NCBI RefSeq assembly: GCF_000702305.1
Contig: NZ_JNLC01000012.1
Location: 1-64,000, forward strand
Direction: 5' to 3'
DNA: 64,000 bases
Source: Allobosea sp. 117
Lineage (GTDB): Bacteria > Pseudomonadota > Alphaproteobacteria > Rhizobiales > Xanthobacteraceae
A program made the position numbers and the translations under genes. This document shows positions 36,272 to 64,000 of the stretch, piece by piece (the stretch's first letter is position 1; every line of letters starts with the position of its first letter). Below the pieces are notes generated by a model. It was not told the DNA's origin and did no database searches. It saw nothing but the letters and a program-made list of their open reading frames with translations.

Positions 36272-36772
36272 TCAGAGCGCGCGGCTGCGCGAGCCCAGCG
36301 TGTCGAACTGGCCGCCCGCATAGATCAGCGGATGCAGCGGCCCTTCCGACAGCACGAGGTCGATCACCTTGCCGAGGAAGATGCTGTGGGTGTGCACGCT
36401 CACCTTCTCGGTCAGCTCGCAGTCGAAGCTCGCCAGCGCGCCGACCAGCGCCGGCGCGCCCGTGGCGAGCGGGCGCCATTCATGGGTGCTGAACCGCAGA
36501 TGCCGGTTCTCTGTCGAGCTGAAGGCCCGCGCGAGCTCGACCTCCGGCTCGGCCAGCAGGTTGACGCAGAAGGAGCGCGTCCTGTCGATGAGGTCGTGGC
36601 ACGACACGTTGCGGTTCACGCAGACGAGCAGCGTCGGCGTCGGATCGGCCGCGACCGACGTCACCGAGGTGGCGACGAAGCCGTGCGGCTGCTCGCCGTC
36701 GATGGTGGTGATGACGGACACGCCGGCGGCGAGCCGCCGCATGCCCTGCTTGAACTGAACCGGATCGACCAT
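36272..36772 (-). CDS. Flavin reductase (two-component monooxygenase partner)
   Basis: A 166-residue flavin-reductase-domain protein. The split-barrel FMN fold shows RRLAAGVSVITTIDGEQPHGFVATSVTSVAADPTPTLLVCVN, SFCVNLLAEPEVELARAFSS and a C-terminal HSIFLGKVIDL...PLIYAGGQFDTLG. It supplies reduced FMN from NAD(P)H to separate oxygenases, and the window encodes two LLM monooxygenases that would need it. The ATG at 36772 with GAGG upstream is preferred; another lies at 36784. A near-perfect sigma-54 element points into this gene. Confidence 0.88.
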   Translation of the reverse strand: MVDPVQFKQGMRRLAAGVSVITTIDGEQPHGFVATSVTSVAADPTPTLLVCVNRNVSCHDLIDRTRSFCVNLLAEPEVELARAFSSTENRHLRFSTHEWRPLATGAPALVGALASFDCELTEKVSVHTHSIFLGKVIDLVLSEGPLHPLIYAGGQFDTLGSRSRAL

Positions 36773-36819
36773 GCCAGACCTCATATCGCGGCCTTTGCCG
36801 GCCGCGTGAAGGGCCGGTG

Positions 36820-36835
36820 CGCAAGTCACGTGCCA
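36820..36835 (-). promoter_or_regulatory. Sigma-54 promoter of the flavin reductase gene
   Basis: Read on the minus strand, TGGCAC-GTGAC-TTGCG matches the -24/-12 consensus TGGCAC-N5-TTGCW at ten of eleven specified positions. The start codon lies about 48 bases downstream. It faces away from a second such element serving the ALDH gene. Confidence 0.82.
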
Positions 36836-36887
36836 AGCGGCGCCGGCGATGGACAGGCTTGGAATTCAGCGGTTTTTCGCCCTCCCC

Positions 36888-36927
36888 GTCTCGGCCCGGC
36901 ATGCGACAAGTGTCGCTGATCTGAGAC
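36888..36927. promoter_or_regulatory. Shared enhancer-like sites (flavin reductase / ALDH)
   Basis: Between the two divergent sigma-54 promoters lie GTCTCG (36888), a perfect dyad GCGACA-AG-TGTCGC (36903-36916) and TGAGAC (36922-36927). They are 55-105 bases upstream of the flavin reductase promoter and 125-165 bases upstream of the ALDH promoter, which suits binding of an enhancer-binding protein serving both. Confidence 0.6.
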
Positions 36928-37051
36928 GGATTCCGGCCGTAAGCGCCGCCGGTGCGGCAGCCCCGAGGCACACCCCGGCACGCGCAAAGCAAGGCGCTGC
37001 GCGGCGTTCGGTACGGATGCGGACGCGCCGGCGCGCGCGGGGGCGCACCCA

Positions 37052-37067
37052 TGGCATGGCTCTTGCC
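37052..37067 (+). promoter_or_regulatory. Sigma-54 promoter of the ALDH gene
   Basis: TGGCAT-GGCTC-TTGCC has the invariant GG and GC dinucleotides at the correct spacing. The ALDH start codon is 104 bases downstream, leaving a leader that contains four AGTCCT repeats. Confidence 0.78.
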
Positions 37068-37113
37068 GAACATATGTCATCACGTCGGGCGACGCTGTCC
37101 GCCGCGCGCCGAC

Positions 37114-37167
37114 AGTCCTTCGACCCGACAGTCCTACGACCATCGCAAGTCCTGCATCGAAAGTCCT
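37114..37167 (+). repeat. Four AGTCCT repeats in the ALDH leader
   Basis: AGTCCT begins at 37114, 37130, 37148 and 37162 (spacing 16, 18 and 14 bases), within a wider GACAGTCCTTCGAC-like unit. They lie between the sigma-54 promoter and the start codon. Possible roles are an RNA- or DNA-binding array, or simple local duplication. Confidence 0.55.
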
Positions 37168-37170
37168 GCC

Positions 37171-38658
37171 ATGACCATCAACATGAACGTCCATGCCGAG
37201 ATCGTCCGTGGGCTCCCCAAGCAGATCCTGATCGACGGCAAGTTCGTCCCCGCCCTTTCGGGCCGGACCTTCCAGACCTTCAACCCGGCGACCGGCGAGG
37301 CGATCGCCGACATCGCGGAAGGCGACGCCGCCGACATCGATCTGGCGGTCGCCGCTGCCCGCCGCGCCTTCACCGGGCCGTGGAGCCGCTTCACCCCGTT
37401 CCAGCGCCAGCAGTGCCTGCTGCGCTTCGCCGACCTGATCGAGACGCATTTCGACGAGCTGTGCGTGATCGATGTGCTCGACATGGGCGTGCCGATCTCG
37501 ATGATGCGCGCCCGCAAGCAGCGCGCCCTCGGCCTCGCCCGTTTCTATGCCGGCCTCGTCACCACCATCCATGGCGGCACGCTGCCGAACTCTTTCCCCG
37601 GCGAGGTGTTCAGCTACACGCTGAAGGAGCCGGTCGGCGTGGTCGGCGCCATCACCCCGTGGAATGCGCCGCTCACCTCGACCATCTGGAAGATGGCGCC
37701 GGTCATCGCCACCGGATGCACCATGGTGCTGAAGCCGGCCGAGGACGCCCCGCTGACCGCGCTCCGGCTTGGCGAATTGCTGCTCGAGGCCGGCGTGCCG
37801 GAAGGCGTCGTCAACATCGTGCCGGGCTTCGGCCATACCGCGGGCGCGGCGCTGGCCTCGCACATGGATGTCGACAAGGTGGCGTTCACCGGTTCCGACT
37901 TCACCGGCCGCAAGATCATCGAAGCCTCGAAGGGCAACATCAAGCGCGTGACGCTGGAGCTCGGCGGCAAGTCGCCGGACGTGATCTTCGCCGATTGCGA
38001 CATGGACGCCGCGGTGGCAGGCGCCGGCATGGGCGTGTTCGCCAATTCCGGCCAGATCTGCTGCGCCGGCACCCGGCTGCTGGTGCAGCGGCCGATCTAT
38101 GACGAGTTCATCGAGCGCGTCTCCGCTTATGCGAAATCGCTGAAGGTCGGCAACGGCCTCGATCCCGAGACGCAGATCGGCCCGGTGGTGAACGCCAAGC
38201 AGCTCGACCGCGTCGCCGGCTATATCGATGTCGGGCTCGGCGAGGGGGCGCAGGCCACCGTCGGCGGCAAGCGCCTGACCGAGGGCGCGCTCAAGAACGG
38301 CTATTTCTTCGAGCCGACCGTGCTGAGCTGCGTCACCAACGACATGCGCGTCGCCCAGGAGGAGATCTTCGGCCCGGTCGCCGCGGCCATCCCCTTCGAC
38401 ACGCTGGAGGAGGCCGCCGCCATCGCCAACGACACGGTGTTCGGCCTCGGCGGCGGCGTGTGGACGACCAACGTCTCCACCGCCCACCGCATGGCGAAGG
38501 CGATCCGCGCCGGCACGGTGTGGGTCAACACCTATGGCGGCCTCGACCCGGTGGTGCCGTTCGGCGGCTACAAGACCAGCGGCTACGGGCGCGAGTCCGG
38601 CGTCGAGCACATCGAGGCCTATCTCGAGACCAAGTCGGTCATCATGAAGCTGGGCTGA
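37171..38658 (+). CDS. Aldehyde dehydrogenase (NAD(P)+)
   Basis: A 495-residue ALDH-superfamily enzyme oxidising an aldehyde to the acid in the cytoplasm. Seen are GVVGAITPWNAPL, the cofactor KPAEDAP and FTGSDFTGRKI, the general-base glutamate in VTLELGGKSPDVIF, the catalytic cysteine in NSGQICCAGTRLLV, and the EEIFGPV and PFGGYKTSGYGRESG C-terminal motifs. It resembles betaine/gamma-glutamyl-aminaldehyde-type enzymes, without proof. In context it would oxidise the aldehyde formed by a GMC alcohol oxidase or an amine oxidase of this cluster. It starts at 37171 after a leader with a sigma-54 promoter. Its stop abuts that of the convergent MFS gene (TGATCA). Confidence 0.92.
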   Translation: MTINMNVHAEIVRGLPKQILIDGKFVPALSGRTFQTFNPATGEAIADIAEGDAADIDLAVAAARRAFTGPWSRFTPFQRQQCLLRFADLIETHFDELCVIDVLDMGVPISMMRARKQRALGLARFYAGLVTTIHGGTLPNSFPGEVFSYTLKEPVGVVGAITPWNAPLTSTIWKMAPVIATGCTMVLKPAEDAPLTALRLGELLLEAGVPEGVVNIVPGFGHTAGAALASHMDVDKVAFTGSDFTGRKIIEASKGNIKRVTLELGGKSPDVIFADCDMDAAVAGAGMGVFANSGQICCAGTRLLVQRPIYDEFIERVSAYAKSLKVGNGLDPETQIGPVVNAKQLDRVAGYIDVGLGEGAQATVGGKRLTEGALKNGYFFEPTVLSCVTNDMRVAQEEIFGPVAAAIPFDTLEEAAAIANDTVFGLGGGVWTTNVSTAHRMAKAIRAGTVWVNTYGGLDPVVPFGGYKTSGYGRESGVEHIEAYLETKSVIMKLG

Positions 38659-39858
38659 TCATGTCCCGGCGGCGCGGCGCTGACGTCGCGCCGCATGGGG
38701 GATGATCGCGCCAACCATCGCCGCGATGATCAGCACCGCGGCGGCGATCAGCAGGAAAGCCGCGCGCATGCCGTGCGCATGCGCGACGAAGCCGATGAGC
38801 GGCGGGCCGAACAAGCCGCCGCCATAGGCCATGGTGACGGCCATGGCGATGCCGGCCGCCGGCAGGATTCCCGGCACCCGCCCGCTCACCGAGAACAGCA
38901 CCGGCACCAGATTTGAGATGCCGAGCCCGGCGATCGCGAAGCCGGGCAGCGCCAGCAGCAGCGTCGGCGCCAGAGCGACCAGGACGACGCCGACGCCGGC
39001 GCACAGGGCAGAAAGGCGGACCGTCGGCACGTCGCCGAGCCATTGCACGATCCGGTCCCCTGAAAACCGGCCGACCGTCATCGCCAGCGAGAAGGCCGCG
39101 AGCCCGTAGGCGGCGTTCGCCGGGCTCGCCGACACCGCCTGCACCAGGAACAGCGCACCCCAGTCGAGCACGCCCAGCTCGACCACGAAGGCGAGGACGG
39201 TCATCGCGCCGATGCCCAGCATGGTGCGGTTCGGAAGCTGGAACACCGAGGTGCCGGTCGCCTCGCGCACATGCGCCTCGGGCAGCCACAGCCAGGGCGC
39301 GGCCAGCGCGGCGATCACGATCAGCACGAGGCTGGCGATCGCCAGCCCGTGGACGATGTCGAGGCCGGCGCCGATCAGCGCGCCGGCGATGAGCGCGCCG
39401 GCGACATTGCCCATGCTGAAGAAGCCGTGGATCGACGACAATATGGGGCGGCCGAACTCCCGCTCGACCGCCGTCGCGTGCGAATTCAGGCAGACATCGA
39501 AGAAGCCGAAGCTCACCCCGATCGCGAACGCCGCCACCGCCAGCGTCGGCATCGACCAGCCCAGGGCGGGCGTGAACACCACCGCCGCGAAAACGATGCC
39601 GGCAATGGCACTGGCCCGCACCGGGCCGAGCCGGGGACGCAGCAGGCCGGCGGTCGGCATGCCGCACAGGCAGCCGATGGACACGCAGAGCAGGACGAGG
39701 CCCATCTGGGCGTCGTCGAGGGTGGCCCGTGCCTTGAGGAGGGGAATATAGGTCGCCCATACCGTCAGTCCGGCGCCGCCGGCGAAGAAGATGATGCTGA
39801 CGGCGACACGCGAGGCGGCCAGCGCGCGCTGCTCGCGCGCGGCGGTAAGTTCAGTCAT
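38659..39858 (-). CDS. MFS transporter
   Basis: A 399-residue major-facilitator protein with twelve hydrophobic segments. It shows GLVLLCVSIGCLCGMPTAGLL...RLGPVR between helices 2 and 3, SFGFFDVCLNSHATAVE and GRFSGDRIVQWLGDV as the second-half signature loop, the pattern seen in FucP/YbjJ-like MFS members. It may import or export a pathway compound. The start at 39858 lies 50 bases after a sigma-54-like element on the same strand, which places it in the regulon. Substrate unknown. Confidence 0.88.
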   Translation of the reverse strand: MTELTAAREQRALAASRVAVSIIFFAGGAGLTVWATYIPLLKARATLDDAQMGLVLLCVSIGCLCGMPTAGLLRPRLGPVRASAIAGIVFAAVVFTPALGWSMPTLAVAAFAIGVSFGFFDVCLNSHATAVEREFGRPILSSIHGFFSMGNVAGALIAGALIGAGLDIVHGLAIASLVLIVIAALAAPWLWLPEAHVREATGTSVFQLPNRTMLGIGAMTVLAFVVELGVLDWGALFLVQAVSASPANAAYGLAAFSLAMTVGRFSGDRIVQWLGDVPTVRLSALCAGVGVVLVALAPTLLLALPGFAIAGLGISNLVPVLFSVSGRVPGILPAAGIAMAVTMAYGGGLFGPPLIGFVAHAHGMRAAFLLIAAAVLIIAAMVGAIIPHAARRQRRAAGT

Positions 39859-39907
39859 GCAACTGTCCCAACAACTCGGTTCCGGCGGCCCGGAGATCGG
39901 ATCTCCC

Positions 39908-39923
39908 GGCATGATGCATGCCA
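39908..39923 (-). promoter_or_regulatory. Sigma-54-like promoter of the MFS gene
   Basis: On the minus strand TGGCAT-GCATC-ATGCC keeps GG and GC at the right distance; the -12 box has A instead of the first T. The MFS start codon is 50 bases downstream. Confidence 0.6.
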
Positions 39924-40033
39924 TCCGACGCGCACGGCGCCCCAATGGACCGTGAGGTGCTGCAACGCAAGCGCCGATGCGCGTTCCCCCGTCCACCTCC
40001 CAAGCGCACGAGTGCTCGCCGCGCGAGCGGCCC

Positions 40034-40083
40034 GTCTCGCCGCTGAGATGCGATCGCCCGAATCTCAGCCCGACCGTTGAGAA
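40034..40083. promoter_or_regulatory. Enhancer-like sites between MFS and GMC1 genes
   Basis: GTCTCG (40034), a perfect dyad TGAGAT-N12-ATCTCA (40044-40067) and TGAGAA (40078) resemble the TGAGAC/GTCTCA sites upstream of other operons of this cluster. They lie 110-160 bases upstream of the MFS promoter and just upstream of the weak GMC1 promoter. Confidence 0.5.
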
Positions 40084-40121
40084 GGTGGCACTAAACGAGG
40101 CCGGAGCGCCGTTTCGAAGGG

Positions 40122-40137
40122 CGGACCGGAACTTGCT
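40122..40137 (+). promoter_or_regulatory. Weak sigma-54-like element before GMC1
   Basis: CGGACC-GGAAC-TTGCT has a good -12 box and the -24 GG at correct spacing, but otherwise a poor -24 box. It ends 39 bases before the GMC1 start codon. It is accepted only because the neighbouring enhancer-like sites and the gene type fit. Confidence 0.4.
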
Positions 40138-40175
40138 CACCCGTCCGCGCAGCAGTGCCTTGCGAGGAGATGAGG

Positions 40176-41771
40176 ATGTACGACTACGTCATCGTCGGCG
40201 GTGGCTCCGCCGGCTGCGTGCTGGCCGCCCGACTGTCGGAAGACCCAGACATTTCGGTGCTGCTTCTAGAGGAAGGGCCGCGCGATCTCTCGCCCTACAT
40301 CCACCTCCCCGCGATGGTCTACAAGACGGCGACCGGCAATCTCCTGCAGCGCATCGCCTGGGAGCCGGCGAACGGCGCGAGCGGCGGCGTCGAGGCGCCC
40401 ACCATGGTGCAGGCTCGCGTGCTCGGCGGCGGCAGCTCGGTCAACGGCATGGTCTATGTGCGCGGGATTCCGAGCGATTTCGACGGCTGGGCAGCGCAGG
40501 GCGCCGAGGGTTGGGACTATGAGGGTGTGCTGCCCTATTTCCGGCGCGCCGAGAGCAACGACACCTTCTCCGGCGCCGCGCACGGCACCGACGGCCCGCT
40601 CTGGGTGTCGAGCCAGCCCTCCCCGCATCCGCTGACCAAGGCATGGCTGAGGGCCTGCCAGGAATACGGCATCCCGCCGACGAGCGACTTCAACGCCGGG
40701 GTCCAGACCGGATGCGGCCTCTACCAGATCACCGCGCGCGACGGCCGCCGCGCCTCGACCGCCGTCACCTATCTGCGGCCGGCGCGCCGGCGCCGCAACC
40801 TGACGGTCCGGACCGGCTGCCGCGCCACACGGGTCCTCGTCGAGCAGGGCCGCGCGGTCGGCGTCGGCTATGTCGGGCGCGGCGGAAGAGAGACGATCGA
40901 GCGCGCCGCCCGCGAGGTGATCCTCTCGGCCGGCGCCATCCAGTCGCCGCGCCTGCTGCTGCAGTCCGGCATTGGTCCAGGCGAGCATCTGCGCCGCGTC
41001 GGCGTGCCGGTGGTGCACGACGTGCCCGGCGTCGGGCGCGGCCTCCAGGACCATATGGACGTTTATCTGGTGCATGAGCTCGACGGCGCCGAGAGCTACG
41101 ACGTCTACCGGCGCTTCCATCGCAAGCTCGGCGCCGGGCTGGACTGGCTGCTGTTCCGGCGCGGGCCGCTCTGCTCCAACCTGATCGAGGGCGGCGCCTT
41201 CTGGTGGGGCGACGGCGAGAGCGCCGAGCCCAACATCCAGTACCACTTCCTGCCCGGCACCGGCGTCGAGGAAGGCGTGGCCCCGGCGGCGGGCAGCGGC
41301 TGCACATTGAACGTGTGCCTCACCCGCCCGCGCTCGCGCGGCGTGGTCGAGCTCACCTCGGCCGAGCCCGGTGCGCGCCTGCGCGTCGCCCCGAACTATT
41401 TCGGCGAAGCCTACGACCTCGACTGCATGGCCGAGGGCGTGCGCATCGGCCAGGAGATTCTGGCGCAACCCTCCATGGCGCGGCTTCTCGGCCGCAAGGT
41501 GATCCCGACGCAGCGGCTTGGCACCCCGGACGAGCTGCGCGCCTATGTGAAGGCGCGCGCGCAGGGCGCGCTCCACCCGGTCGGCACCTGCCGGATCGGC
41601 AGGGACGCGGACGCGGTGGTCGATCCGGCGCTGCGGGTGCACGGCATCGCCGGGCTGCGCGTGGCCGACGCCTCGGTGATGCCGTCAACCCCTTCGGGCA
41701 ACACCAATGCCTGCGCCATCATGATCGGCGAGAAGGCCGCCGACCTGATCCGGCACGGCAATGGGAGGTGA
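40176..41771 (+). CDS. GMC oxidoreductase 1
   Basis: A 531-residue FAD-dependent GMC (choline/alcohol/glucose-type) oxidoreductase. It begins MYDYVIVGGGSAGCVLAARLSED (FAD motif), with ARVLGGGSSVNGMVYVRG, the AGAIQSPRLLLQSGIGP signature and the catalytic His467 in HPVGTCRIG, followed by SGNTNACAIMIGEKAADL. It would oxidise a primary or secondary alcohol. The ATG at 40176 has GAGGAG six bases upstream; the ATG at 40170 overlaps that ribosome site. It is the closest relative in the window of GMC2 (same length and catalytic position). Confidence 0.92.
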   Translation: MYDYVIVGGGSAGCVLAARLSEDPDISVLLLEEGPRDLSPYIHLPAMVYKTATGNLLQRIAWEPANGASGGVEAPTMVQARVLGGGSSVNGMVYVRGIPSDFDGWAAQGAEGWDYEGVLPYFRRAESNDTFSGAAHGTDGPLWVSSQPSPHPLTKAWLRACQEYGIPPTSDFNAGVQTGCGLYQITARDGRRASTAVTYLRPARRRRNLTVRTGCRATRVLVEQGRAVGVGYVGRGGRETIERAAREVILSAGAIQSPRLLLQSGIGPGEHLRRVGVPVVHDVPGVGRGLQDHMDVYLVHELDGAESYDVYRRFHRKLGAGLDWLLFRRGPLCSNLIEGGAFWWGDGESAEPNIQYHFLPGTGVEEGVAPAAGSGCTLNVCLTRPRSRGVVELTSAEPGARLRVAPNYFGEAYDLDCMAEGVRIGQEILAQPSMARLLGRKVIPTQRLGTPDELRAYVKARAQGALHPVGTCRIGRDADAVVDPALRVHGIAGLRVADASVMPSTPSGNTNACAIMIGEKAADLIRHGNGR

Positions 41772-41841
41772 GGATGAGACCGGTCGCGCACGCGTCCGCG
41801 ACGCGTGTAGCCGGTTTGAGACTCCTGCGACGGCAATCTCA
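41772..41841. promoter_or_regulatory. Enhancer-like sites upstream of ABC operon 1
   Basis: GGATGAGACCGGTCGCGCA (41772-41790) is nearly identical to the site at 55944 upstream of LLM2. A perfect palindrome CGCGTC-cgc-GACGCG (41791-41805), TGAGAC (41817) and ATCTCA (41836) follow. They lie 65-134 bases upstream of the sigma-54 element. Confidence 0.65.
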
Positions 41842-41905
41842 ATTCCACGCGCGTCACCTTCAACAATCCGTTGATTTATTTTAGTATTTTTTGGTACGAA
41901 GGTGG

Positions 41906-41921
41906 TGGCATGCCTCTTGCT
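41906..41921 (+). promoter_or_regulatory. Sigma-54 promoter of ABC operon 1
   Basis: TGGCAT-GCCTC-TTGCT matches the -24/-12 consensus closely. The substrate-binding-protein start codon is 62 bases downstream, after GAGGGGA. Confidence 0.82.
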
Positions 41922-41982: not shown

Positions 41983-43152
41983 ATGGCCGACACGCCTAAC
42001 GGGCGCCCGTTCGGGAGCGCCAACATTTTCCGCAACGACGTACTGTCCCGTCGCAATTTCCTCGGGACGAGCCTTGCGCTCGGCGCGGGCGCGACGCTGG
42101 GCAGTTGGCCGGGCTCCATGCCGGCGCAGGCCGCCACGGGCGGCGACCTGATGACGCTCGCCTGGGAGGGCTTCACGCTCGAGAACGAGCTGAAGGACTG
42201 GCTGGCGACGAACAAGGTGAAGCTCAACGCCTCGATCATCAGCACCCAGGACGACGTGCACGGCAAGCTGATCGGCAGCAATCCGGTCCGGCTCGACGTG
42301 ACCGAATATTCGCAGGGCTTCGAGCGCTTCTACGTCGACGAGCTGAAGATCGTGAAGCCGCTCGACATCGCCAAGGTGCCGAACTTCACGGCGGCGAATA
42401 TCCAGCCGCAGTTCTACCAGGCGCCGACCTGGTACTGGGACAACACCTACTACGCCATTCCGTGGGTGTGGGGCCTCAACGCGCTGGTCTACAACCCGGC
42501 GATGACCAAGCCGATCAAGTCCTATAAGGACCTGCTGGCGCCGGAGATGAAGGGCAAGCTCACCTTCTGCGACGACACCATCGCCACCTGGCCGATGATC
42601 GCCCGCCTCGCCGGCTACGGTCCGAAATTCCCCAACCTCACCAAGGAGGAATTCAAGACCGCCTTCAACGGCCTGGCGCCCTATCGCGACCAGTGCCGCG
42701 TGTTCGCCTCCTCGAACGGCGACACCATCTCGCTGTTCGCCTCCGGCGAGATCGCGGCCTGCTTCTCGGTGTGGAGCGGCACGCCGGTCGAGACCGCCAA
42801 GCGCGGCGTCAAGACCGTCTACACCGTGCCGGAGGAAGGCGCGGTGATGTGGTGCGACGCCTGGTTCATGCCGATCAGCGCGGTGAACATCGACACCGCC
42901 TATGCCTTCATGAACGAGGCGGTTTCTGCGAAGGCGCAGGCCGAGGTCTGCAAGGCGGTCAATGGCGGCGCGGTCAACAAGCACGCGCCGGCGCTGATGG
43001 ACAAGGACACGCTGGCGCTGTTCGACTACAGCAACCTTGCGGAGGTCTTCAAGAAGTCGCCTCTGCAGGGTCAGCCGCCGCGGGTCTCGGACAAATACGC
43101 GACCTATGACGAGTGGACCCAGGCCTGGACCGACTTCAAGTCCTCGTTCTGA
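41983..43152 (+). CDS. ABC importer 1, substrate-binding protein (PotD-like)
   Basis: A 389-residue periplasmic binding protein of the spermidine/putrescine/opine group. A twin-arginine signal (LSRRNFLGTSLALGAGATLG, about 22-41) directs Tat export. The mature protein shows LMTLAWEGF, LDVTEYSQGFERFY, YAIPWVWGLNALVYNP, KGKLTFCDD and a C-terminal AQAEVCKAVNGGAVN, all in the PotD-like pattern. It would deliver its ligand to the permeases encoded next. The ligand is unknown; the fold class favours cationic amines and related small organics. Confidence 0.9.
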   Translation: MADTPNGRPFGSANIFRNDVLSRRNFLGTSLALGAGATLGSWPGSMPAQAATGGDLMTLAWEGFTLENELKDWLATNKVKLNASIISTQDDVHGKLIGSNPVRLDVTEYSQGFERFYVDELKIVKPLDIAKVPNFTAANIQPQFYQAPTWYWDNTYYAIPWVWGLNALVYNPAMTKPIKSYKDLLAPEMKGKLTFCDDTIATWPMIARLAGYGPKFPNLTKEEFKTAFNGLAPYRDQCRVFASSNGDTISLFASGEIAACFSVWSGTPVETAKRGVKTVYTVPEEGAVMWCDAWFMPISAVNIDTAYAFMNEAVSAKAQAEVCKAVNGGAVNKHAPALMDKDTLALFDYSNLAEVFKKSPLQGQPPRVSDKYATYDEWTQAWTDFKSSF

Positions 43153-43191: not shown

Positions 43192-44064
43192 ATGATGAAC
43201 GGTAATCGGCGTGAGGCAACGGGGCTGGCGCTCGTCGCTCCTTCCTTCCTGTTCCTCCTGGTGTTCTTCATCATCCCGGCGGTGCTTCTGTTCGTCTGCA
43301 GTTTCTGGCTGGCTCAGGCCTTCCGCCTGATCCCGACCTTCACCTTCGACAATTACAGCCGCGCGCTCTCTGCGGGCGGCTTCTACCTGCTCACCCTGAA
43401 TGCGCTGAAGAACGGCCTGTGGACCGCCGTCATCTCGGTGCTGCTCAGCTTTCCGGCGGCCTATTTCATCGTCTACCGCACCCGCGGGAACCTGCTCTTC
43501 TACCTGATCCTGGTGTCGTGGTTCGCGAGCTATCTGGTGCGCATCTATGCGTGGCGCACCATCCTCGGCTCGAACGGCCTCATCAACACCACGCTGATGC
43601 AGCTCGGCCTGATCGACCAGCCGCTCGAGGTGCTGCTCTTCAGCCCCTTCGCGACCATCCTCACCCTCGTCCACATCATGGTGCCCTTCGCGCTTCTGCT
43701 GCTCGTCTCGGCGCTGCGCGACGTCCGGAAGGAATATATCGAGGCCGCCCGCGACCTCGGCGCCGGCGGCTTCGAGGTACTGACGCGGGTCATCCTGCCG
43801 ATGAGCTACAAGGGCGTGGTCGGCGCCTTCATGTTCACCTTCGTCATCTCCGCCGGCGACTTCGTGACCCCGCAACTGCTCGGCGGGCGCGACGGCATGA
43901 CCACCGGCATCCTCATCGCCAACCAGTTCCGCACCGCCGGCAACTGGCCGTTCGGCGCCGCCATGGCCTTCATTTTGCTGGCCACCTTCCTGATGACCTA
44001 TTTCATGTTCGTCCGGCTGCTGGACGTCCTGCGGCTGGCGCCGGGCCGCCGCTTCCATGACTGA
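43192..44064 (+). CDS. ABC importer 1, permease (PotB-like)
   Basis: A 290-residue inner-membrane permease with six hydrophobic segments. The cytoplasmic EAA loop that docks the ATPase is EYIEAARDLGAGGFEVLTRVILP, with SAGDFVTPQLLGGRDGMTTGILIANQF after it, as in PotB. It is encoded 39 bases after the binding protein and 24 bases before the second permease. Confidence 0.92.
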   Translation: MMNGNRREATGLALVAPSFLFLLVFFIIPAVLLFVCSFWLAQAFRLIPTFTFDNYSRALSAGGFYLLTLNALKNGLWTAVISVLLSFPAAYFIVYRTRGNLLFYLILVSWFASYLVRIYAWRTILGSNGLINTTLMQLGLIDQPLEVLLFSPFATILTLVHIMVPFALLLLVSALRDVRKEYIEAARDLGAGGFEVLTRVILPMSYKGVVGAFMFTFVISAGDFVTPQLLGGRDGMTTGILIANQFRTAGNWPFGAAMAFILLATFLMTYFMFVRLLDVLRLAPGRRFHD

Positions 44065-44088
44065 TCACGAGCCACGCACGGAGGTCTC

Positions 44089-45974: not shown

Positions 45975-46008
45975 GCGCCGCCGCGACAGCCCGCTTTCGC
46001 CGCGACGG

Positions 46009-46048
46009 TCTCATCCGCGTGACACGTCTCACCGCCCGGATGTCTCAC
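46009..46048. promoter_or_regulatory. Triple GTCTCA enhancer-like array upstream of LLM1
   Basis: GTCTCA occurs at 46009, 46027 and 46043. The middle copy directly abuts TGACAC, forming TGACACGTCTCA, a palindrome apart from one base pair. The array is 55-95 bases upstream of the sigma-54 promoter. Confidence 0.65.
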
Positions 46049-46102
46049 CGGCCCGCGCCCGGCACAAACAAAAGATCGTTGATTCCAAACAGCTTTTTTC
46101 TC

Positions 46103-46118
46103 TGGCACGGCGATTGCG
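46103..46118 (+). promoter_or_regulatory. Sigma-54 promoter of the LLM1-GMC2-FAD1 operon
   Basis: TGGCAC-GGCGA-TTGCG is a near-perfect -24/-12 promoter, preceded by a T-rich tract (CTTTTTTC) often seen upstream of the -24 box. The LLM1 start is 119 bases downstream. Confidence 0.85.
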
Positions 46119-52926: not shown

Positions 52927-52992
52927 TTCGGAAGCTATTCACTTCATACTATACTTCACATAATTATTGTCATATGCGTTGACCTAAGCCAA

Positions 52993-53008: not shown

Positions 53009-53028
53009 TCGTGAAAAGCCTGTGTTCC

Positions 53029-55943: not shown

Positions 55944-55962
55944 GGATGAGACGCGTCGCGCG
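55944..55962. promoter_or_regulatory. Enhancer-like site upstream of LLM2
   Basis: GGATGAGACGCGTCGCGCG shares GGATGAGACNNGTCGCGC with the site at 41772, identical at every position outside the two central bases. It lies 54 bases upstream of the sigma-54 element. Confidence 0.68.
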
Positions 55963-56015
55963 CCGGATGCCGCCGCGCACGCCCATACGCCAGCAAAATC
56001 AACGGATTGACCATC

Positions 56016-56031
56016 TGGCATGCGGCTTGCC
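56016..56031 (+). promoter_or_regulatory. Sigma-54 promoter of the LLM2 operon
   Basis: TGGCAT-GCGGC-TTGCC matches the -24/-12 consensus. The GTG start of LLM2 is 55 bases downstream. Confidence 0.82.
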
Positions 56032-56085
56032 GAAGGGAAGCCATGGGCCGGCGCCACGCCGGCGAGCCTTCAAGGGAGTCCGGTC

Positions 56086-57192
56086 GTGCAGCTTTCCTTC
56101 TTCATGATGCCGCTTCATTCCGTCGGCCGGGATTACCCGACCGCGCTCGACGAGGACATCGAGGCGTTCAAGCTGGCCGACGAGCTCGGCTTCGCGGAGG
56201 GCTTCGTCGGGGAGCATTATTCGGCAGAAATCGAGCAGATCTCCTCGCCGCTGATGTTCCTCGCGCACATGGCGTCGCAGACCAAGCGCATCAAGCTCGG
56301 CACCGGCGTCATCACCCTGCCGCTCTACCATCCGGTGATGGCGGCCGCCCATATCGCGCTGGCCGATCACCTCACGCGCGGCCGGCTGATCCTCGGCATC
56401 GGCACTGGCGGCCTCGGCTCGGATTTCGAAGTGTTCAACATGGAGAACGCCGACCGCACCGCGATGATGCTGGACTCCATCGACATCATCAAAAAGATCT
56501 GGACGTCCGATCCGCCCTACGACATCCCCGGCAAGTTCTGGGACATCAAGCTGAGCAAGATGTACTGGCCCGACCTCGGGGTGGGCATCATGCCCAAGCC
56601 CCTCACCAAGCCGCATCCCCCGCTCGCCGTCTCGGTGTCGAGCCCCTATTCGAGCTCGATGCGGATGGCCGCGCGGCACGACTTCATGCCGATCTCGGCG
56701 AACTTCGTCGCCTCCTGGGTGGTGAAGACCCATTGGGAGACCTATTGCGACGAGATGGCCAAGCTCGGAAAGACACCCGACGGCTCGAAATGGCGTGTCG
56801 CCCGCTCGATCTTCGTCGCCGACACCGACGAGGCCGCCGCCCGCCATGTGAAGACCCCCGGCGGCGCCTTCAGTTGGTATTACGACTACATGTACCAGGT
56901 CTATGAGCGCATGGGCGCCGGTGCGCTGCTCGCCCCGTTCCGCGACACTGACCCGGCGACCATCACCCCGGAGCTGGTGCGCGACAACTTCGTGATCTAT
57001 GGCAGCCCGGAGACGGTCGCCCGCAAGATCCTCGAATTGCGCGAGGAGGTCGGCCCCTTCGGGACGCTGATGATGACCTCGCATGAATGGGACGACAAGC
57101 CGGCCATGCGCCGCTCCATGGAACTGCTGGCGCGGCGCGTGATGCCCGCCGTCAATGCGGAGCTCGGCGACGTGCCGGCGATCGCGGTCTGA
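56086..57192 (+). CDS. LLM-class flavin-dependent monooxygenase 2
   Basis: A 368-residue luciferase-like oxygenase, clearly paralogous to LLM1 (VQLSFFMMPLHSVGRDYPTAL, ADELGFAEGFVGEHYS, KLGTGVITLPLYHP, GRLILGIGTGGLGSDFEVF, YGSPETVARKILELREEVGPFGTLM). It needs FMNH2 from a reductase. The start is GTG at 56086, seven bases after GGGAG; earlier in-frame codons would lie across the sigma-54 promoter. It is followed by the aldonolactone-oxidase-like gene, with which it forms an operon. Confidence 0.88.
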   Translation: MQLSFFMMPLHSVGRDYPTALDEDIEAFKLADELGFAEGFVGEHYSAEIEQISSPLMFLAHMASQTKRIKLGTGVITLPLYHPVMAAAHIALADHLTRGRLILGIGTGGLGSDFEVFNMENADRTAMMLDSIDIIKKIWTSDPPYDIPGKFWDIKLSKMYWPDLGVGIMPKPLTKPHPPLAVSVSSPYSSSMRMAARHDFMPISANFVASWVVKTHWETYCDEMAKLGKTPDGSKWRVARSIFVADTDEAAARHVKTPGGAFSWYYDYMYQVYERMGAGALLAPFRDTDPATITPELVRDNFVIYGSPETVARKILELREEVGPFGTLMMTSHEWDDKPAMRRSMELLARRVMPAVNAELGDVPAIAV

Positions 57193-57208
57193 AGGCGGGG
57201 TTGGCGGG

Positions 57209-58477
57209 ATGTTGAGCGTTGACACCGCCGGGGTGCTGAAGCCCGGCAAGCTGTGGTGGAACTGGTTCGGGGAGCAGTATTTCGTCCCCCGCTACACCGC
57301 GCGGCCGACCTCCGAGGAGGAGGTCTGCGCCGTGGTGCGCGAGGCGCGCAAGCTCGGCCTGCCGATCCGCGCGAGCGGCGCCGGCCACTCCAATCCGGCC
57401 GTCGTGCCGACGCCGGGCGTGCACGTCGATTTCGACGCCTTCAACCAGGTCGTCTCGGTCGACAAGGAGAAGCTCCAGGTCACCGTGCGTCCCGGCATGC
57501 GGGTCAGCGAGCTGACCCGCTTCCTGCGCGCGAACGGCATGTCGCTCAACAACCAGGGCGACATCGACCGGCAGGCGGTTCCCGGTGCGCTGATGACCGG
57601 CACGCATGGCGCCGGCAAAAAGCTCGGCTGCCTGTCCACCCAGCTCATCGCCGCCCGCATCGTCACCGCGGACGGCGAGCTGCGCGACCTCACGGCCGCC
57701 GACGGCGAGCTGTTCAAGGCGTTCCGCACCTCGATCGGCCTGTTCGGCCTCATCGTCTCGCTGACGATACAGGCCGTGCCGTCCTACAACATCCTCAAGC
57801 GCTCCTGGAACACCGATACCGAGGACTGCATCGGCAACCTCCACGAGCTGCTCGACGCCAACCGGACCTTCTGGTTCTTCTGGCTGCCGCGCAAGGAATC
57901 CGCCGATCTCTATGAGCTGCCGGGCGGCGTGGTGCCCTCCAAGGCGACGCGCGACTTCGACATCTGCCACATGCGGACCTACAACGCCGTGCCGGTCGCC
58001 GAGCCGGCGCCCGATCTCGGACCGGGCGAGCAGTTCGACCACTCCTCGATCATCTACCCGAACGACTACATCCCCAACTTCCGGGAGATCGAATACGCGG
58101 TGCCGTTCGCGCGCTTCGAGGAGTGCTTCGCGGAAGTGCGGCACATGTTCCAGACCAAATATCCGGACGCGCTCTACCCGGTGGAGTGCCGCGCGGTGAA
58201 GGCCGACGACACCTATCTATCCGCCTATGCCGAGCGCGATGGTTACGCCCTCTCCATCTCCGGTCCGCTGGAGGAATCCACCTGGGCCATGCTGCGCGAC
58301 GCCGACGCGATCCTCGACCGCTATGACGCGCGCCCGCACTGGGGCAAGCACCACTTCATGACGCCCGAGCGGCTGGAGCGCATCTATCCGAAATACGACG
58401 CCTTCAAGCGCCTGCGCCGCGAGATGGACCCCGACGGGGTCTTCCTGAACGACCATCTGCGCATGCTCTTCGCCTGA
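57209..58477 (+). CDS. VAO-type FAD oxidase (aldonolactone-oxidase-like)
   Basis: A 422-residue protein with an N-terminal FAD-binding (PCMH) domain. IRASGAGHSNPAVVPTPGVHVDF contains the histidine that usually carries covalent FAD, then QGDIDRQAVPGALMTGTHGAG, GLFGLIVSLTIQAVP and a C-terminal ARPHWGKHHF, the HWGK motif of gulono/arabinono-1,4-lactone oxidases. It oxidises an alcohol or lactol, reducing O2 or cytochrome. It lies 16 bases after LLM2 and is ended by a strong hairpin. The real substrate may be a pathway intermediate rather than a sugar lactone. Confidence 0.88.
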   Translation: MLSVDTAGVLKPGKLWWNWFGEQYFVPRYTARPTSEEEVCAVVREARKLGLPIRASGAGHSNPAVVPTPGVHVDFDAFNQVVSVDKEKLQVTVRPGMRVSELTRFLRANGMSLNNQGDIDRQAVPGALMTGTHGAGKKLGCLSTQLIAARIVTADGELRDLTAADGELFKAFRTSIGLFGLIVSLTIQAVPSYNILKRSWNTDTEDCIGNLHELLDANRTFWFFWLPRKESADLYELPGGVVPSKATRDFDICHMRTYNAVPVAEPAPDLGPGEQFDHSSIIYPNDYIPNFREIEYAVPFARFEECFAEVRHMFQTKYPDALYPVECRAVKADDTYLSAYAERDGYALSISGPLEESTWAMLRDADAILDRYDARPHWGKHHFMTPERLERIYPKYDAFKRLRREMDPDGVFLNDHLRMLFA

Positions 58478-58507: not shown

Positions 58508-58605
58508 GCATTTCCGCCGGTCCGTCCTCGCGAAGGGGATTCAGGTTGACGACCAAGATTTGTGCTGCGCAAAATTTAATCGAGGGACCTGACCCGGAGC
58601 CCCCG

Positions 58606-60606
<2,001 letters not shown>

Positions 60607-60632: not shown

Positions 60633-60727
60633 TGTCGCATTGGCGCGACACACTGGCTCATTCACGCAACGTCGCGACGCTGACACCTGTGTGTCTCATT
60701 CCTGCACGTACATTTCGACGTGTCTCA
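60633..60727. promoter_or_regulatory. Enhancer-like sites upstream of ABC operon 2
   Basis: The cluster holds TGTCGC-N6-GCGACA (60633-60650, perfect), GTCGCGAC (60671-60678), TGACAC-N6-GTCTCA (60681-60698) and a further GTCTCA (60722-60727). They lie 130-225 bases upstream of the sigma-54 element. The half sites TGTCGC and GTCTCA both recur in the flavin reductase/ALDH region. Confidence 0.65.
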
Positions 60728-60857
60728 TGGATGATCCCGACATATACGCTCGCATATTCTTCGATCGGCACGCGGATAAATCATTTTTATTGTGAAACAG
60801 TAGGTATTTTGCCTATCACACAGGCCTGATTGTTTTTCGTATCCTGATCATTTCGGC

Positions 60858-60873
60858 TGGCACGATAGTTGCC
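60858..60873 (+). promoter_or_regulatory. Sigma-54 promoter of ABC operon 2
   Basis: TGGCAC-GATAG-TTGCC is close to the ideal -24/-12 sequence. The binding-protein start codon is 45 bases downstream. Confidence 0.85.
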
Positions 60874-60917
60874 GAACCCTGCAGAGGCCGCCAGAGGCCC
60901 AACCACAGGGGATAAGA

Positions 60918-62021
60918 ATGACCAGCCTCAATGGAAGCGGGGCGCCGTCGCGGCGCAGCGTAATCAAGAGCATGGGCGTCGCGGCTGCCGCCCTGGCCGC
61001 CCCCGGCGTCCTGCGGCGCGCCTATGCGCAGGACCCGATCGTGCTCCTGACCTGGGAGACCTACCACGATCCGGCATGGTGCAAGGAATGGAGCGAGGCG
61101 AACGGCGTCGAGGTGAAGCCGGTGGTCATCGGCTCGGTCGACGAGCTGTTCTCCCAGCCCTTCTCCGGCGCCATCAAGCCGGACGTCATGTACATCGAGA
61201 CCGGCTCGCTGCCGCGCTTCAAGGAGGCCGGGCTGATCACCGCGTTCAACACCGCGAAGGTGCCGAACATCGCCAACATCACCCCGAAGCTCGACTGGAA
61301 GAAATACACCACGGTCGGCGGCGAGGTGGTCGGCGTGCCCTATAACTGGGGCACCCAGCCGCTGATGTTCAACGCCGACGTCGTCAAGTCGCCGGATAGC
61401 TGGGCGATCCTGTGGGACGAGAAGTACAAGGGCAAGGTCAACGTGTTCGACGACTGCACGATCGTCTTCCCGATGATCGCGCTCTATGTCGGCGCCAAGG
61501 ATCCGTTCAACCTGACCGACGCCGACTTCACCGCCTGCGAGAAGGCGCTGCGTGCGCTGCGCGGCCAGGTGCGCACCATCGCCCGCGGCTTCGACGACGC
61601 CACGACGATCTACGCCGCCGGCGACGCCGTGATCGGCTATTGCCAGAACATCGCGGTGGTCACCTCGCTGCAGGACAAGGGCAAGAACTTCAACTACTCG
61701 CTGCCCAAGGAAGGCACCCCGACCTGGATCGACTGCACCGGCGTCTCCAAGAAGGGCGACCGCGACATCGTCTACAAGTTCATCAACGACAACCTCGCCA
61801 CCAAGTGGCAGGCCCGCTTCATCGAATCCTCCACCAACAACGGCGTGCTCACCGCCGCCGAAGCCAAGAAGGGCGGCGTCACCGAGAAGACCCTGAAGCG
61901 CACCAATCTTGAGGACGCCGAGGCCGGCGACTTCTGGCAGAAGCTCGTCATCCTGCAGAAGCCGGAGGATTTCGACCGGCGCCTGCAGATCTGGAACGAC
62001 TTCAAGGCCGGCACGCTCTGA
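60918..62021 (+). CDS. ABC importer 2, substrate-binding protein (PotD-like)
   Basis: A 367-residue periplasmic binding protein with a Tat signal (APSRRSVIKSMGVAAAALAAPG, about 9-30). The mature part has IVLLTWETYHDPAW, IKPDVMYIETGSLPRFKEAGLI, VVGVPYNWGTQPLMFNADVV and KGKVNVFDD, the same PotD-like pattern as the protein at 41983 but clearly divergent in sequence. It is the first gene of the second importer. Confidence 0.9.
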   Translation: MTSLNGSGAPSRRSVIKSMGVAAAALAAPGVLRRAYAQDPIVLLTWETYHDPAWCKEWSEANGVEVKPVVIGSVDELFSQPFSGAIKPDVMYIETGSLPRFKEAGLITAFNTAKVPNIANITPKLDWKKYTTVGGEVVGVPYNWGTQPLMFNADVVKSPDSWAILWDEKYKGKVNVFDDCTIVFPMIALYVGAKDPFNLTDADFTACEKALRALRGQVRTIARGFDDATTIYAAGDAVIGYCQNIAVVTSLQDKGKNFNYSLPKEGTPTWIDCTGVSKKGDRDIVYKFINDNLATKWQARFIESSTNNGVLTAAEAKKGGVTEKTLKRTNLEDAEAGDFWQKLVILQKPEDFDRRLQIWNDFKAGTL

Positions 62022-62057
62022 CAAGCGCGCGTTCCCTCGAACATCGGAGCACGGGTG

Positions 62058-63155
62058 ATGGCGAAGGATTCGCAGCCGATCCTCAACGTGGCGGGCGTCG
62101 ACAAGACCTATGAGGGGGCGGTGCGTCCGGCCCTCGACAGGATCTCATTCTCGGTCGAGCCCGGCGAATTCTTCTCCATCCTCGGCCCGAGCGGCTCCGG
62201 CAAGACGACGCTGCTGCGCCTGATCGCCGGTTTCGAGCGCCCGGACATCGGGCGCATTATCATTGACGGCGAGGACGTCACCCACGTCCCGCCGTTCCGC
62301 CGCGACGTGCGCACGGTGTTCCAGAGCTATGCGCTGTTCCCGCATATGAGCGTGCTGGAGAACGTCGCCTATCCGCTGCGCATGGCCGGCGCCCGCAAGG
62401 CCGAGCGCATGGCGAAGGCGCAGGAAGGGCTGGAGCTCGTCAGCATGGGCGAGTTCGCCGCCCGCCTGCCGCACCAGCTCTCCGGCGGCCAGCGCCAGCG
62501 CGTGGCGCTTGCCCGCGCCATCGTCTGCCGGCCGCGCATCCTGCTGCTCGACGAGCCGCTCGGCGCGCTCGACCTGCGCCTGCGCCAGCAGATGCAGCAT
62601 GTGCTGGTCTCGCTGCAGCGCGAGCTCGGCATCGCCTTCGTCTACGTCACCCACGACCAGGGCGAGGCCCTCTCCATGTCCGACCGCGTGGCGGTGATGA
62701 GCGAGGGCCGCATCGCCCAGCTCGGCACGCCGCGCGAGATCTATTTCGACCCCTCCTCCGAGTTTGTCGCCCAGTTCGTCGGCTGCTCGAACCTGCTGCC
62801 GATCGAGTTCGTCACCCGCGGCAGCGAGGTGACGGCGATGCTCGGCGGCCAGCCACTCGCCGGCCTCGACGCGCCGCGCGGCGATGCCGGATCGCGGGCC
62901 GGGCCGGCGCGCATGGCGGTGCGCTTCGAATGCGTCCGCCTCGGCGCCCCCGGCGAGCCGGCGAACGGCGCCTGCAGCCTCGAAGGCACGGTCGAGGACG
63001 TGCTGTTCCTCGGCAATGCTCTGGAGGTGAACGTGCGTTGCGGCGAGATGAGCATCATCGCCCATGTGCCCTCGACGGGTGGGGAAGGCGCCGCGCCCGG
63101 CCAGAGGGTGCGGGTCATGTTCGAGCCGGACAACGCGACGGTGTTCCATGGCTGA
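62058..63155 (+). CDS. ABC importer 2, ATP-binding protein (PotA-like)
   Basis: A 365-residue ATPase. It has Walker A GPSGSGKTT, a Q loop VFQSYALFPHMSVLENVAYPL, the signature LSGGQRQRVALARAIV, Walker B LLLDEPLGALDLRLRQQMQ and VTHDQGEA, with a TOBE domain at the end. Gene order differs from importer 1: here the ATPase comes second, there it comes last. The ATG at 62058 has GGAG eight bases upstream; a GTG lies one codon earlier. Confidence 0.93.
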   Translation: MAKDSQPILNVAGVDKTYEGAVRPALDRISFSVEPGEFFSILGPSGSGKTTLLRLIAGFERPDIGRIIIDGEDVTHVPPFRRDVRTVFQSYALFPHMSVLENVAYPLRMAGARKAERMAKAQEGLELVSMGEFAARLPHQLSGGQRQRVALARAIVCRPRILLLDEPLGALDLRLRQQMQHVLVSLQRELGIAFVYVTHDQGEALSMSDRVAVMSEGRIAQLGTPREIYFDPSSEFVAQFVGCSNLLPIEFVTRGSEVTAMLGGQPLAGLDAPRGDAGSRAGPARMAVRFECVRLGAPGEPANGACSLEGTVEDVLFLGNALEVNVRCGEMSIIAHVPSTGGEGAAPGQRVRVMFEPDNATVFHG

Positions 63156-64000
63156 CATCGCCACCGAAGCCGTCGAAGCCGGAACCATGGCCACGCCCGT
63201 CGCCCGCCCTCTCCGGCTCCGGTCCTTCAGCATGCTCGGCTGGCCGGTCTATGCCTGGTTCGTCGCCCTCGTCCTGGTGCCGAACCTGCTGCTGATCGGC
63301 ACCAGCTTCCTGCGCACCTCCAACGGGCTGATCGTCTTCGATCCGAGCGTCGCCAGCTATCTGCGGCTGTGGAACTCCGCCAGCTTCCAGTGGCTGCTGA
63401 TGCGCACGCTGGCGACCAGCGCCGCCGCCGCCGTGCTCGGCTGCCTCATCGCCTACCCGATGGCCTATTACGCGGCGCGTGTCGTGCAGCGCGGCCGCTC
63501 GGTGCTGATCGTATTGGTGATCATCCCGCTGTGGATCAGCCTGCTGATGCGCGTCTTTGCCTGGCGCATGATCCTCGGCCAGAACGGCATATTGAACTCG
63601 TTCCTGGTGAACAGCGGCATCCTCGACCAGCCGAGCGAGGCCTTCCTCTATACCGGCTTCTCGGTGCTGCTGACCTATACCTACATCTCCATTCCCTTCG
63701 CCTTCATCGCCATCTTCACGGCGCTGGAGAAGATCCCGCATTCGCTGATCGAGGCCTCGCAGGACAGCGGCGCCTCCGCCTGGCAGACCTTCCGCCACGT
63801 GGTGTGGCCGCTCTCGCGCCCGGGCGTCGCCATCGGCTTCGCACTCGCTTTCCTGACCACGGTGGGCGACTACATCACGCCCTCCATGGTCGGCGGCATC
63901 GACGGCACCATGATCGGCATGGTGATCGCCTCGCAGTTCGGCATCGCCAACAACTGGCCCTACGGCTCGGCCATCGCGGTCTGTCTCATGGTGAGCGCGG
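63149..64000 (+). CDS. ABC importer 2, permease (PotB-like, partial)
   Basis: The first 284 residues of a permease that runs off the right edge. Its start overlaps the ATPase stop by seven bases. Hydrophobic segments include LGWPVYAWFVALVLVPNLLLIG and VLIVLVIIPLWISLLMRVFAW, and the EAA loop is SLIEASQDSGASAWQTFRHVVWPLS. The GDYITPSMVGGIDGTMIGMVIASQF segment is the PotB-like signature. A PotC-like partner is expected beyond the window. Confidence 0.92.

Follow-up and report, generated by a model that had tools for sequence, protein, structure and literature searches.

A likely substrate-induced sigma-54 regulon driving two parallel amine-oxidising modules in Allobosea sp. 117

A stretch of 64,000 nucleotides from Allobosea sp. 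117 (contig NZ_JNLC01000012.1, positions 1 to 64,000; C11:1-64000 of the 4.64 Mb genome; hereafter the window) carries at 36272-64000 an island of genes that probably forms a substrate-induced sigma-54 regulon driving two parallel amine-oxidising modules. That the island is one sigma-54 regulon, as a first-pass annotation of this DNA had proposed, is well supported at the sequence level by a shared upstream half-site (GTCTCA), a recognition helix common to both activators and conservation across genera; the promoters, half-sites, helix, gene content, conservation and modular history can all be read from the DNA itself. In its first part, the island encodes a flavin reductase (FRed, minus strand), an aldehyde dehydrogenase (ALDH, plus strand), an MFS transporter (minus strand), the GMC oxidoreductase GMC1, a solute-binding protein (SBP) with its ABC permeases and ATPase (SBP1-PotB1-PotC1-PotA1), and a luciferase-like monooxygenase (LLM1). 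The second part comprises GMC2-DadA1, the activator AcoR1 (minus strand), GMC3-DadA2, LLM2 with a VAO-type oxidase (LLM2-VAO), the activator AcoR2, SBP2-PotA2, and a fused permease. Genes were called from codon composition and named from Pfam and NCBIfam, with starts judged by eye, and the Pfam families agree with the earlier gene list; several open reading frames open upstream of the start positions given there. The closest relatives of the whole cluster are found in Ancylobacter species.

Both strands of the window were scanned with a -24/-12 matrix whose weights are approximate. The six top matches of the 64 kb, at 36836(-), 41905(+), 60857(+), 46102(+), 56015(+), and 37051(+), sit directly upstream of FRed, SBP1, SBP2, LLM1, LLM2, and ALDH, respectively, and coincide with the elements that had been proposed before 36772(-), 41983(+), 60918(+), 46237(+), 56086(+), and 37171(+). 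The element of FRed (TTGGCACGTGACTTGCG, 36820..36836, minus strand) scores 17.0, the best in the window, and is present in all eight relatives scanned. Those of SBP1 (GTGGCATGCCTCTTGCT, 41905..41921, plus; score 16.9) and LLM1 (CTGGCACGGCGATTGCG, 46102..46118, plus; 15.9) each have an equivalent in five relatives, and equivalents in relatives were also found for SBP2 (CTGGCACGATAGTTGCC, 60857..60873, plus; 16.1), LLM2 (CTGGCATGCGGCTTGCC, 56015..56031, plus; 15.6), and ALDH (ATGGCATGGCTCTTGCC, 37051..37067, plus; 14.7). The first-pass annotation had called for a comparison with random sequence: at a score of at least 14.5 the island holds 6 matches against a mean of 0.31 and a maximum of 3 in 200 dinucleotide shuffles, with none in the rest of the window, and at a score of at least 13 it holds 6 against a mean of 0.84 and a maximum of 6, with 1 in the rest of the window. 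Genome-wide, the pattern TGGCAYGNNNNTTGC, which was composed with the window already seen and relaxed to fit its sites, occurs 13 times in 4.64 Mb, 6 of them in the island (p 3e-11), and the reversed control gave no match. Two further elements are weak but conserved. The one before the MFS gene at 39858(-) (39908..39924, minus strand) had been called good; its place stands, having the same form in 8/8 relatives scanned, but its score of 11.5 is weak. The one before GMC1, already regarded as weaker, is a non-consensus GG-N10-GC (CGGACCGGRACTTGCT, 40122..40137, plus strand) that scores poorly, yet is kept in 6/6 aligned sequences, the window included, while its flanks have diverged. The candidate before 53029 was rejected as a -24/-12 element, since it lacks the -24 GG and is present in none of the six relatives aligned, so that eight of the nine proposed places (six strong, two weak but conserved) are upheld.

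A second signal accompanies these promoters. The hexamer GTCTCA/TGAGAC was first noticed by reading the upstream regions and was then ranked, with strands pooled, among all hexamers: in 3.1 kb of upstream sequence it came first, with 11 of the window's 17 copies (p 3e-11; runner-up 5e-6). Because the regions in the window had been picked from the sites of the first-pass annotation, other genomes were put through the same ranking. GTCTCA again came first in all three groups: 14 Ancylobacter loci from 9 genomes gave p 6e-42, 7 Rhizobiales/Burkholderia loci p 1.5e-25, and 14 additional loci from the order, some of them without the cluster, p 3e-9. Among gene-proximal sigma-54 matches, those with a half-site in the 300 bp upstream number 44 of 46 for Ancylobacter, 15 of 15 for Rhizobiales/Burkholderia, and 11 of 16 for the further genomes, whereas the expectation for random 300 bp is about 0.11, 0.16, and 0.06, respectively. 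None of 118 distances between half-site and -24 element is shorter than 53 bp, and 92 fall at 60-139 bp, a spacing as expected for an enhancer site. Upstream activator sites of the regulon are present as GTCTCA half-sites, to which the activators would bind.

Within the island, one half-site (36922..36927) lies between the divergent FRed and ALDH promoters, as seen in both the hexamer ranking and the scan of relatives. A second palindrome, GCGACA-NN-TGTCGC, stands beside it (36880-36930) and in several relatives, and could represent another form of this operator. Upstream of SBP1, TGAGAC occurs at 41775 and 41817 (41775..41822), and a third copy at 41959, one of the 11, lies downstream of the promoter element and before the gene. 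Three GTCTCA copies ahead of LLM1 (46008, 46026, and 46042; 46008..46047, plus strand) make up two of the genome's four GTCTCA-N5-30-GTCTCA pairs; three of the four are in the window, and the remaining one (C10:20742) is inside a coding tandem repeat and was taken as chance. A single TGAGAC precedes LLM2 (55947..55952), and two GTCTCA copies recovered by both the ranking and the pair search precede SBP2 (60693..60727, plus strand). Upstream of GMC1, inverted half-sites (CTGAGAT...AATCTCAG, 40042..40069) retain the right-hand TCTCA and the following GAGA in 6/6 aligned sequences. Between GMC3 and AcoR1, operator-like repeats (TCTCA/TGAGA/TGTCTCA/TGAGA, 52888..52926) came out of the alignment of relatives, with TGAGA, TGTCTCA, and TGAGA kept in 7/7 aligned sequences including the window. 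Since one of these seven (L071) keeps the repeats without having an AcoR1 match, they probably serve GMC3 and not AcoR1 alone. A TATACT that could be a sigma-70 -10 element in either direction (52950..52955, plus strand) is also conserved there (TATAC in 7/7, TATACT in 6/7 aligned sequences), and the region resembles a sigma-70 promoter combined with an operator.

The candidate proteins for reading these half-sites are AcoR1 (50626..52551, minus strand; helix SRATLYRRL) and AcoR2 (58546..60606, plus strand; helix SRATLYRKL). As first described, both look like AcoR-type activators and have an intact GAFTGA motif; both also have a Walker A motif, they are 44% identical to each other, and a sigma-54 factor gene is present in the genome. 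Their recognition helix, SRAT[LIF]YR[KR], was found in 25 of 25 cluster activators of relatives that were compared and in none of the seven other activators of the same genome that were compared; ten of the genome's 13 PF00158 matches are strong, and the comparison covered nine of these ten, leaving aside L099 and the three weak matches. The genes of the island fall into two sets, module A (LLM2, VAO, DadA2, FRed, an AcoR2-like activator, SBP2-PotA2-fused permease, and ALDH) and module B (LLM1, SBP1-PotBCA, GMC2, a PuuB-like gene, RidA, and an activator). Loci with module A only carry an AcoR2-like activator and loci with module B only carry another activator of the set, and because both kinds of locus use GTCTCA, AcoR1 and AcoR2 probably recognise the same half-site. 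It is possible, though not the reading we favour, that the window holds two separate neighbouring regulons, in which AcoR1 would control module B in answer to one inducer and AcoR2 module A in answer to another, and the half-site they have in common would be no more than a family resemblance between operators; module A does occur with one activator and no LLM1, and module B has one activator in the stretches examined. A separation of this kind sits poorly with the same hexamer and the nearly identical recognition helix of both proteins, and with the island having one flavin reductase, whose promoter and that of ALDH flank one half-site.

The modules have histories of their own. Module A is present in Ancylobacter genomes lacking an LLM1 orthologue (L028, L029), on A. 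polymorphus plasmid pB (L071), there with GMC and RidA, on the A. vitis (Agrobacterium) plasmid pAvCG78b (L074), without LLM1 and with no GMC in the stretch examined, as well as in further genera (L077-L080). The examined stretches of Rhizobium, Sinorhizobium, and Agrobacterium have module B but not module A, and Mesorhizobium and Burkholderia have parts of module B; module-B-like genes are also carried by the Ti plasmid pTiAF3.44 (L068) and by other Agrobacterium and Mesorhizobium plasmids (L070, L069). Because each module occurs elsewhere without the other, the single catabolic route first proposed is more aptly seen as two parallel ones with a common switch, and that common switch is the part of the proposal which stands. 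In a tree built for the LLM family only (GMC, DAO, AcoR, and SBP sets were collected as well), LLM1 and LLM2 belong to separate clades (support 97/95 and 100/99), each with members from other families, and identity within pairs is 41-45% for LLM, DadA, and AcoR and 26% for the SBPs. The modules had been called duplicated, which is apt as a description; a lineage-specific tandem duplication was rejected, as LLM1 and LLM2 are not each other's nearest kin in this LLM-only tree. The separate clades with their other-family members, together with the patchy spread, indicate that two old modules came together in the island, which did not arise by local duplication. That spread across the order is patchy: among 397 genomes, the own genome included, VAO was found in 9 (1e-100) and LLM1 in 3 (1e-110).

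Co-occurrence, which the initial reading had proposed to search for, was examined at LLM loci of other genomes. Among 35 LLM loci, 8 share at least 60% identity, and 6 of these have GMC, DAO, and Pot matches together and 7 have an activator match; the 27 more distant loci, some on short contigs, gave no GMC, DAO, SBP, or activator match at 1e-20. Several Ancylobacter relatives carry RidA and PuuB-like genes between LLM1 and GMC2, and across 22 loci of relatives a PuuB-like gene (at least 43%) is present in 11 and RidA in 14. The window gave no match to either, in which its cluster differs from most relatives with module B, and its LLM1-GMC2 gap (47344-47613; compare L033:11186-13046) is without them; elsewhere in the genome the best PuuB-like match reaches 34%, and two RidA-family proteins (50%, 42%) are encoded on another contig.

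The promoter and operator together also lead to a gene outside the window. Of the seven TGGCAYGNNNNTTGC sites there, six lack GTCTCA in the preceding 300 bp; the seventh has two copies and precedes an imine-reductase-family gene (C9:285142-286020; L111:6143-7021). Its product belongs to the imine reductase family by domain cut-offs, with PF21761 at 42.7 bits (cut-off 27) and PF03446 (NAD_binding_2) at 58.4 (cut-off 21); its C-terminal domain is reductive-aminase-like, and its nearest relatives include solved imine reductases (about 1e-39). Orthologues (E <= 1e-40) occur in 2 of 24 other genomes of the genus, both among the four that have LLM1 and LLM2 orthologues (Fisher p 0.02). Both orthologues (L113, L114) keep the sigma-54 site and one GTCTCA although much of the intervening sequence has drifted, so that the layout of promoter plus GTCTCA is found in 3/3 genomes of the genus set having the gene, the own genome included. 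Neither the GTCTCA operator nor this unlinked member was among the observations of the first-pass annotation. To our knowledge, a native role has been described for few imine reductases. No paper joining an imine reductase with sigma-54 was found in the open-licence literature, as far as its accessible parts go.

Several results weigh against reading the island as a single sigma-54 regulon with a complete route. The stricter promoter pattern TGGCACNNNNNTTGCW, tried first genome-wide, gave 2 matches and none in the island. GMC3 has no conserved -24/-12 element in the relatives aligned, and for AcoR1, AcoR2, and GMC2 the best upstream matches were poor in every genome scanned. Nor are the 14 Ancylobacter loci independent of one another, being drawn from 9 related genomes. 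Sigma-54 matches that are not before a matched gene have a half-site in 4/6, 9/29, and 1/7 cases across the three groups; the half-site is thus not restricted to the query genes, and some of these cases precede cluster genes outside the query set. Neither activator has a Pfam GAF domain at 1e-3. The imine-reductase gene is present in only 2 of the 4 other genomes of the genus having both LLMs, and, with the PuuB-like gene of module B absent, the window's own route may be incomplete.

As to what the route degrades, the enzyme families allow a class of chemistry to be proposed. LLM1 (46237..47343, plus strand; Pfam Bac_luciferase 1e-44) has 3,6-diketocamphane monooxygenase (4uwm) as its nearest solved relative (5e-41), and LLM2 (56020..57192, plus; Bac_luciferase 4e-46) probably starts at 56086. 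FRed, of which the island has one copy only (36272..36829, minus; Flavin_Reduct 9e-40; start probably 36772), and ALDH (36952..38658, plus; Aldedh 2.5e-173, match from residue 103; start probably 37171) are joined by three GMC oxidoreductases, all on the plus strand: GMC1 (40155..41771; Pfam GMC N and C; start probably 40176), GMC2 (47614..49236; Pfam), and GMC3 (53011..54612; Pfam GMC; start probably 53029). The nearest solved relatives of GMC3 are a chloramphenicol-inactivating oxidoreductase (9e-137) and then a choline dehydrogenase; GMC1-3 fall below the BetA cut-offs of TIGR01810 (469-488 vs 732) and PRK02106 (544-558 vs 605). The DAO-family FAD oxidoreductases are DadA1 (49249..50508, plus; DAO 4e-61) and DadA2 (54616..55884, plus; DAO 7.5e-62), the latter nearest to glycine oxidase in PDB (3e-21). 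The VAO-type FAD oxidase (57155..58477, plus; FAD_binding_4 and ALO), of the lactone/alditol oxidase group, reaches 296.5 bits on TIGR01679 (cut-off 292.25) and has galactonolactone dehydrogenase and xylitol oxidase as its nearest solved relatives. Uptake would be served by SBP1 (41983..43152, plus) with PotB1, PotC1, and PotA1 (43192..45974, plus), and by SBP2 (60918..62021, plus) with PotA2 (62055..63155, plus; Pfam) and a fused PotB-PotC permease that begins at 63148 (start by eye, plus strand) and continues beyond the window end at 64000 (L013:3065-4903, with two BPD_transp_1 stretches). By Pfam, PDB relatives, and alignment, both SBPs are PotD/F-like, their nearest solved relatives being PotD/PotF and kin. 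The MFS transporter (38659..40140, minus; MFS_1 1.3e-14 from residue 116) probably starts at 39858.

The DAO enzymes, together with the RidA and PuuB-like genes of relatives, point to amine and imine chemistry; the compound broken down probably contains nitrogen, and the most likely chemistry appears to be one in which an organic amine with a hydroxyalkyl or ring part is oxidised step by step. Malate synthase G and a D-2-hydroxyacid dehydrogenase stand beside the cluster in L069, a D-2-hydroxyacid dehydrogenase in L070, and L-serine ammonia-lyase and glycerate kinase in L068, suggesting glyoxylate or serine outlets. Genes for FMN supply accompany the cluster in L069 and L070, and also the more distant LLMs found in L072 and L073. 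The first-pass annotation could match the gene set to no described pathway, and we likewise found none with an LLM, GMC, DAO, VAO, and Pot gene set in the accessible parts of the open-licence literature; in the passages of PMC3973600 consulted, a luciferase-like monooxygenase gene and GMC genes appear in separate tables, with no link between them seen.

A secondary or tertiary amine resembling opines or aminopolycarboxylates, imported and then handled by an FMNH2-dependent monooxygenase and an FAD amine oxidase to yield glyoxylate, is a rather unlikely substrate, although the Ti plasmid and the other Agrobacterium plasmid with module-B-like genes, the kinship of DadA2 to glycine oxidases, the malate synthase G beside one relative, and the imine-reductase-family member of the regulon would all suit it. 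LLM2 scores 32.5 on the NtaA/DmoA model TIGR03860 against a cut-off of 279.7, and this family is outside the best 25 of 29 matches of LLM1; moreover, we know of no nitrilotriacetate (NTA)/ethylenediaminetetraacetate (EDTA)-type route that includes choline-dehydrogenase-like or lactone-oxidase-like enzymes. The aminopolycarboxylate analogy drawn at first therefore holds only for the logic of the route. Ordinary polyamine catabolism, with Pot-type import, PuuB/DadA-like oxidation, and an aldehyde dehydrogenase, is improbable. It would account for the PotA ATPases, which pass TIGR01187 (358.3 for PotA1 and 365.8 for PotA2 vs 355.6), for the PuuB-like genes of relatives, and for the Trp-x-Asp of PotD/PotF, kept in both SBPs, which we take to anchor an amine. 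The binding proteins themselves reach only 48-73 bits, with SBP1 at 72.9 (PotF, cut-off 636) and 60.8 (PotD, 582) and SBP2 at 56.7 (PotD) and 48.2 (PotF), and SBP2 differs from PotD at other positions that we assume to be ligand contacts; we know of no polyamine route that uses LLM, GMC, and VAO enzymes. Finally, chance matches in GC-rich DNA would be a very improbable source of the -24/-12 elements, and in our view are refuted at the sequence level, for despite the approximate weights, the relaxed genome pattern, and at least one of 200 shuffles that equalled the observed 6 at score 13, the matches cluster genome-wide, are placed ahead of genes, are conserved, and are accompanied by the separate GTCTCA signal.

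For the favoured regulon of two parallel modules, the binding and cross-activation by the activators, the induction, the class of substrate, and the order of reactions are inferred, and a working model may be outlined as follows. An effector would be sensed by AcoR1 and AcoR2, which would occupy GTCTCA half-sites, most of them 60-140 bp upstream, and spend ATP to open sigma-54 polymerase at the -24/-12 elements. Two parallel modules would thereby be switched on. Each would take up its substrate through a polyamine-type ABC importer and oxygenate it with an FMNH2-dependent LLM monooxygenase supplied by the island's one flavin reductase; a flavoenzyme (GMC in module B, VAO with or without GMC in module A) would oxidise alcohol groups and a DAO-family enzyme amines, accompanied by the aldehyde dehydrogenase. 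Following uptake, an organic amine bearing a hydroxyalkyl or ring part would undergo FMNH2-dependent oxygenation, its alcohol group would be oxidised to an acid, and oxidative cleavage of C-N bonds would leave aldehydes or imines together with C2/C3 acids, glyoxylate for example. RidA-type and imine-reductase-family proteins would deal with the imine by-products.

This arrangement resembles several known systems in part. As in AcoR/DhaR operons, the activators have a central AAA+ domain with GAFTGA and a Fis-type helix, their genes adjoin the operons, and AcoR2 aligns with the DhaR model over residues 47-684; however, AcoR2 scores 254 against the DhaR cut-off of 551, a Pfam GAF match is missing from both proteins, and in the island two paralogues appear to share one operator while serving two transport-oxidation modules. 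NTA/EDTA degradation employs NtaA/EmoA with a flavin reductase and an iminodiacetate oxidase, and the island shares its logic of ABC import, FMNH2-dependent LLM, and FAD amine oxidase, whereas it adds GMC, VAO, and ALDH enzymes and its LLM2 is far below the NtaA/DmoA cut-off. The trigonelline system TgnA/TgnB/TgnC likewise acts on a nitrogen compound with an LLM, a flavin reductase, and an aldehyde dehydrogenase, all shared with the island, but is not known to include GMC, DAO, and VAO enzymes like those found here; literature searches for trigonelline-type routes turned up nothing of use. The type II Baeyer-Villiger enzyme 3,6-diketocamphane monooxygenase, closest to LLM1 by sequence among solved structures, keeps other gene company. 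The importers belong to the family of PotABCD/PotFGHI, and both PotA proteins exceed their cut-off, in contrast to the SBPs, which are far below those of PotD/PotF.

Some further loci were noted along the way. On plasmids of Phaeobacter and Agrobacterium (L072, L073), LLMs of a more distant clade are accompanied by CoA-pathway and riboflavin genes and probably serve another substrate; L072 also has an annotated sigma-54-interacting regulator. Four open reading frames chosen in L063 had no Pfam match (4/4), more probably because the frames were wrong than because genes are lacking there. One contig of a genome from another family (L075, L076; G292:C23) holds parts of both modules about 270 kb apart. 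The genome of Allobosea sp. 117 has a further LLM relative (L026; C12:253441; 33%) whose match contains one TAG, and in Rhizobium vallis the GMC2 match is split in two pieces (L037:15326-16896).

Collectively, the promoter and operator form a code that can be used for scanning, and soil-bacterial chromosomes as well as Agrobacterium and rhizobial plasmids carry such clusters. An inducer of the two activators would reveal the substrate, the two binding proteins can be screened against ligands, and an imine-reductase-family gene is tied to a catabolic switch. We tentatively suggest, as a possibility that goes further than the regulon itself, that a mobile GTCTCA/SRAT-YR regulon family may link Hyphomicrobiales and Burkholderia through an undescribed plant- or tumour-associated amine route, and that the lineage of the window may have joined two once-separate modules under cross-acting activators, which would give an imine reductase a native catabolic role.

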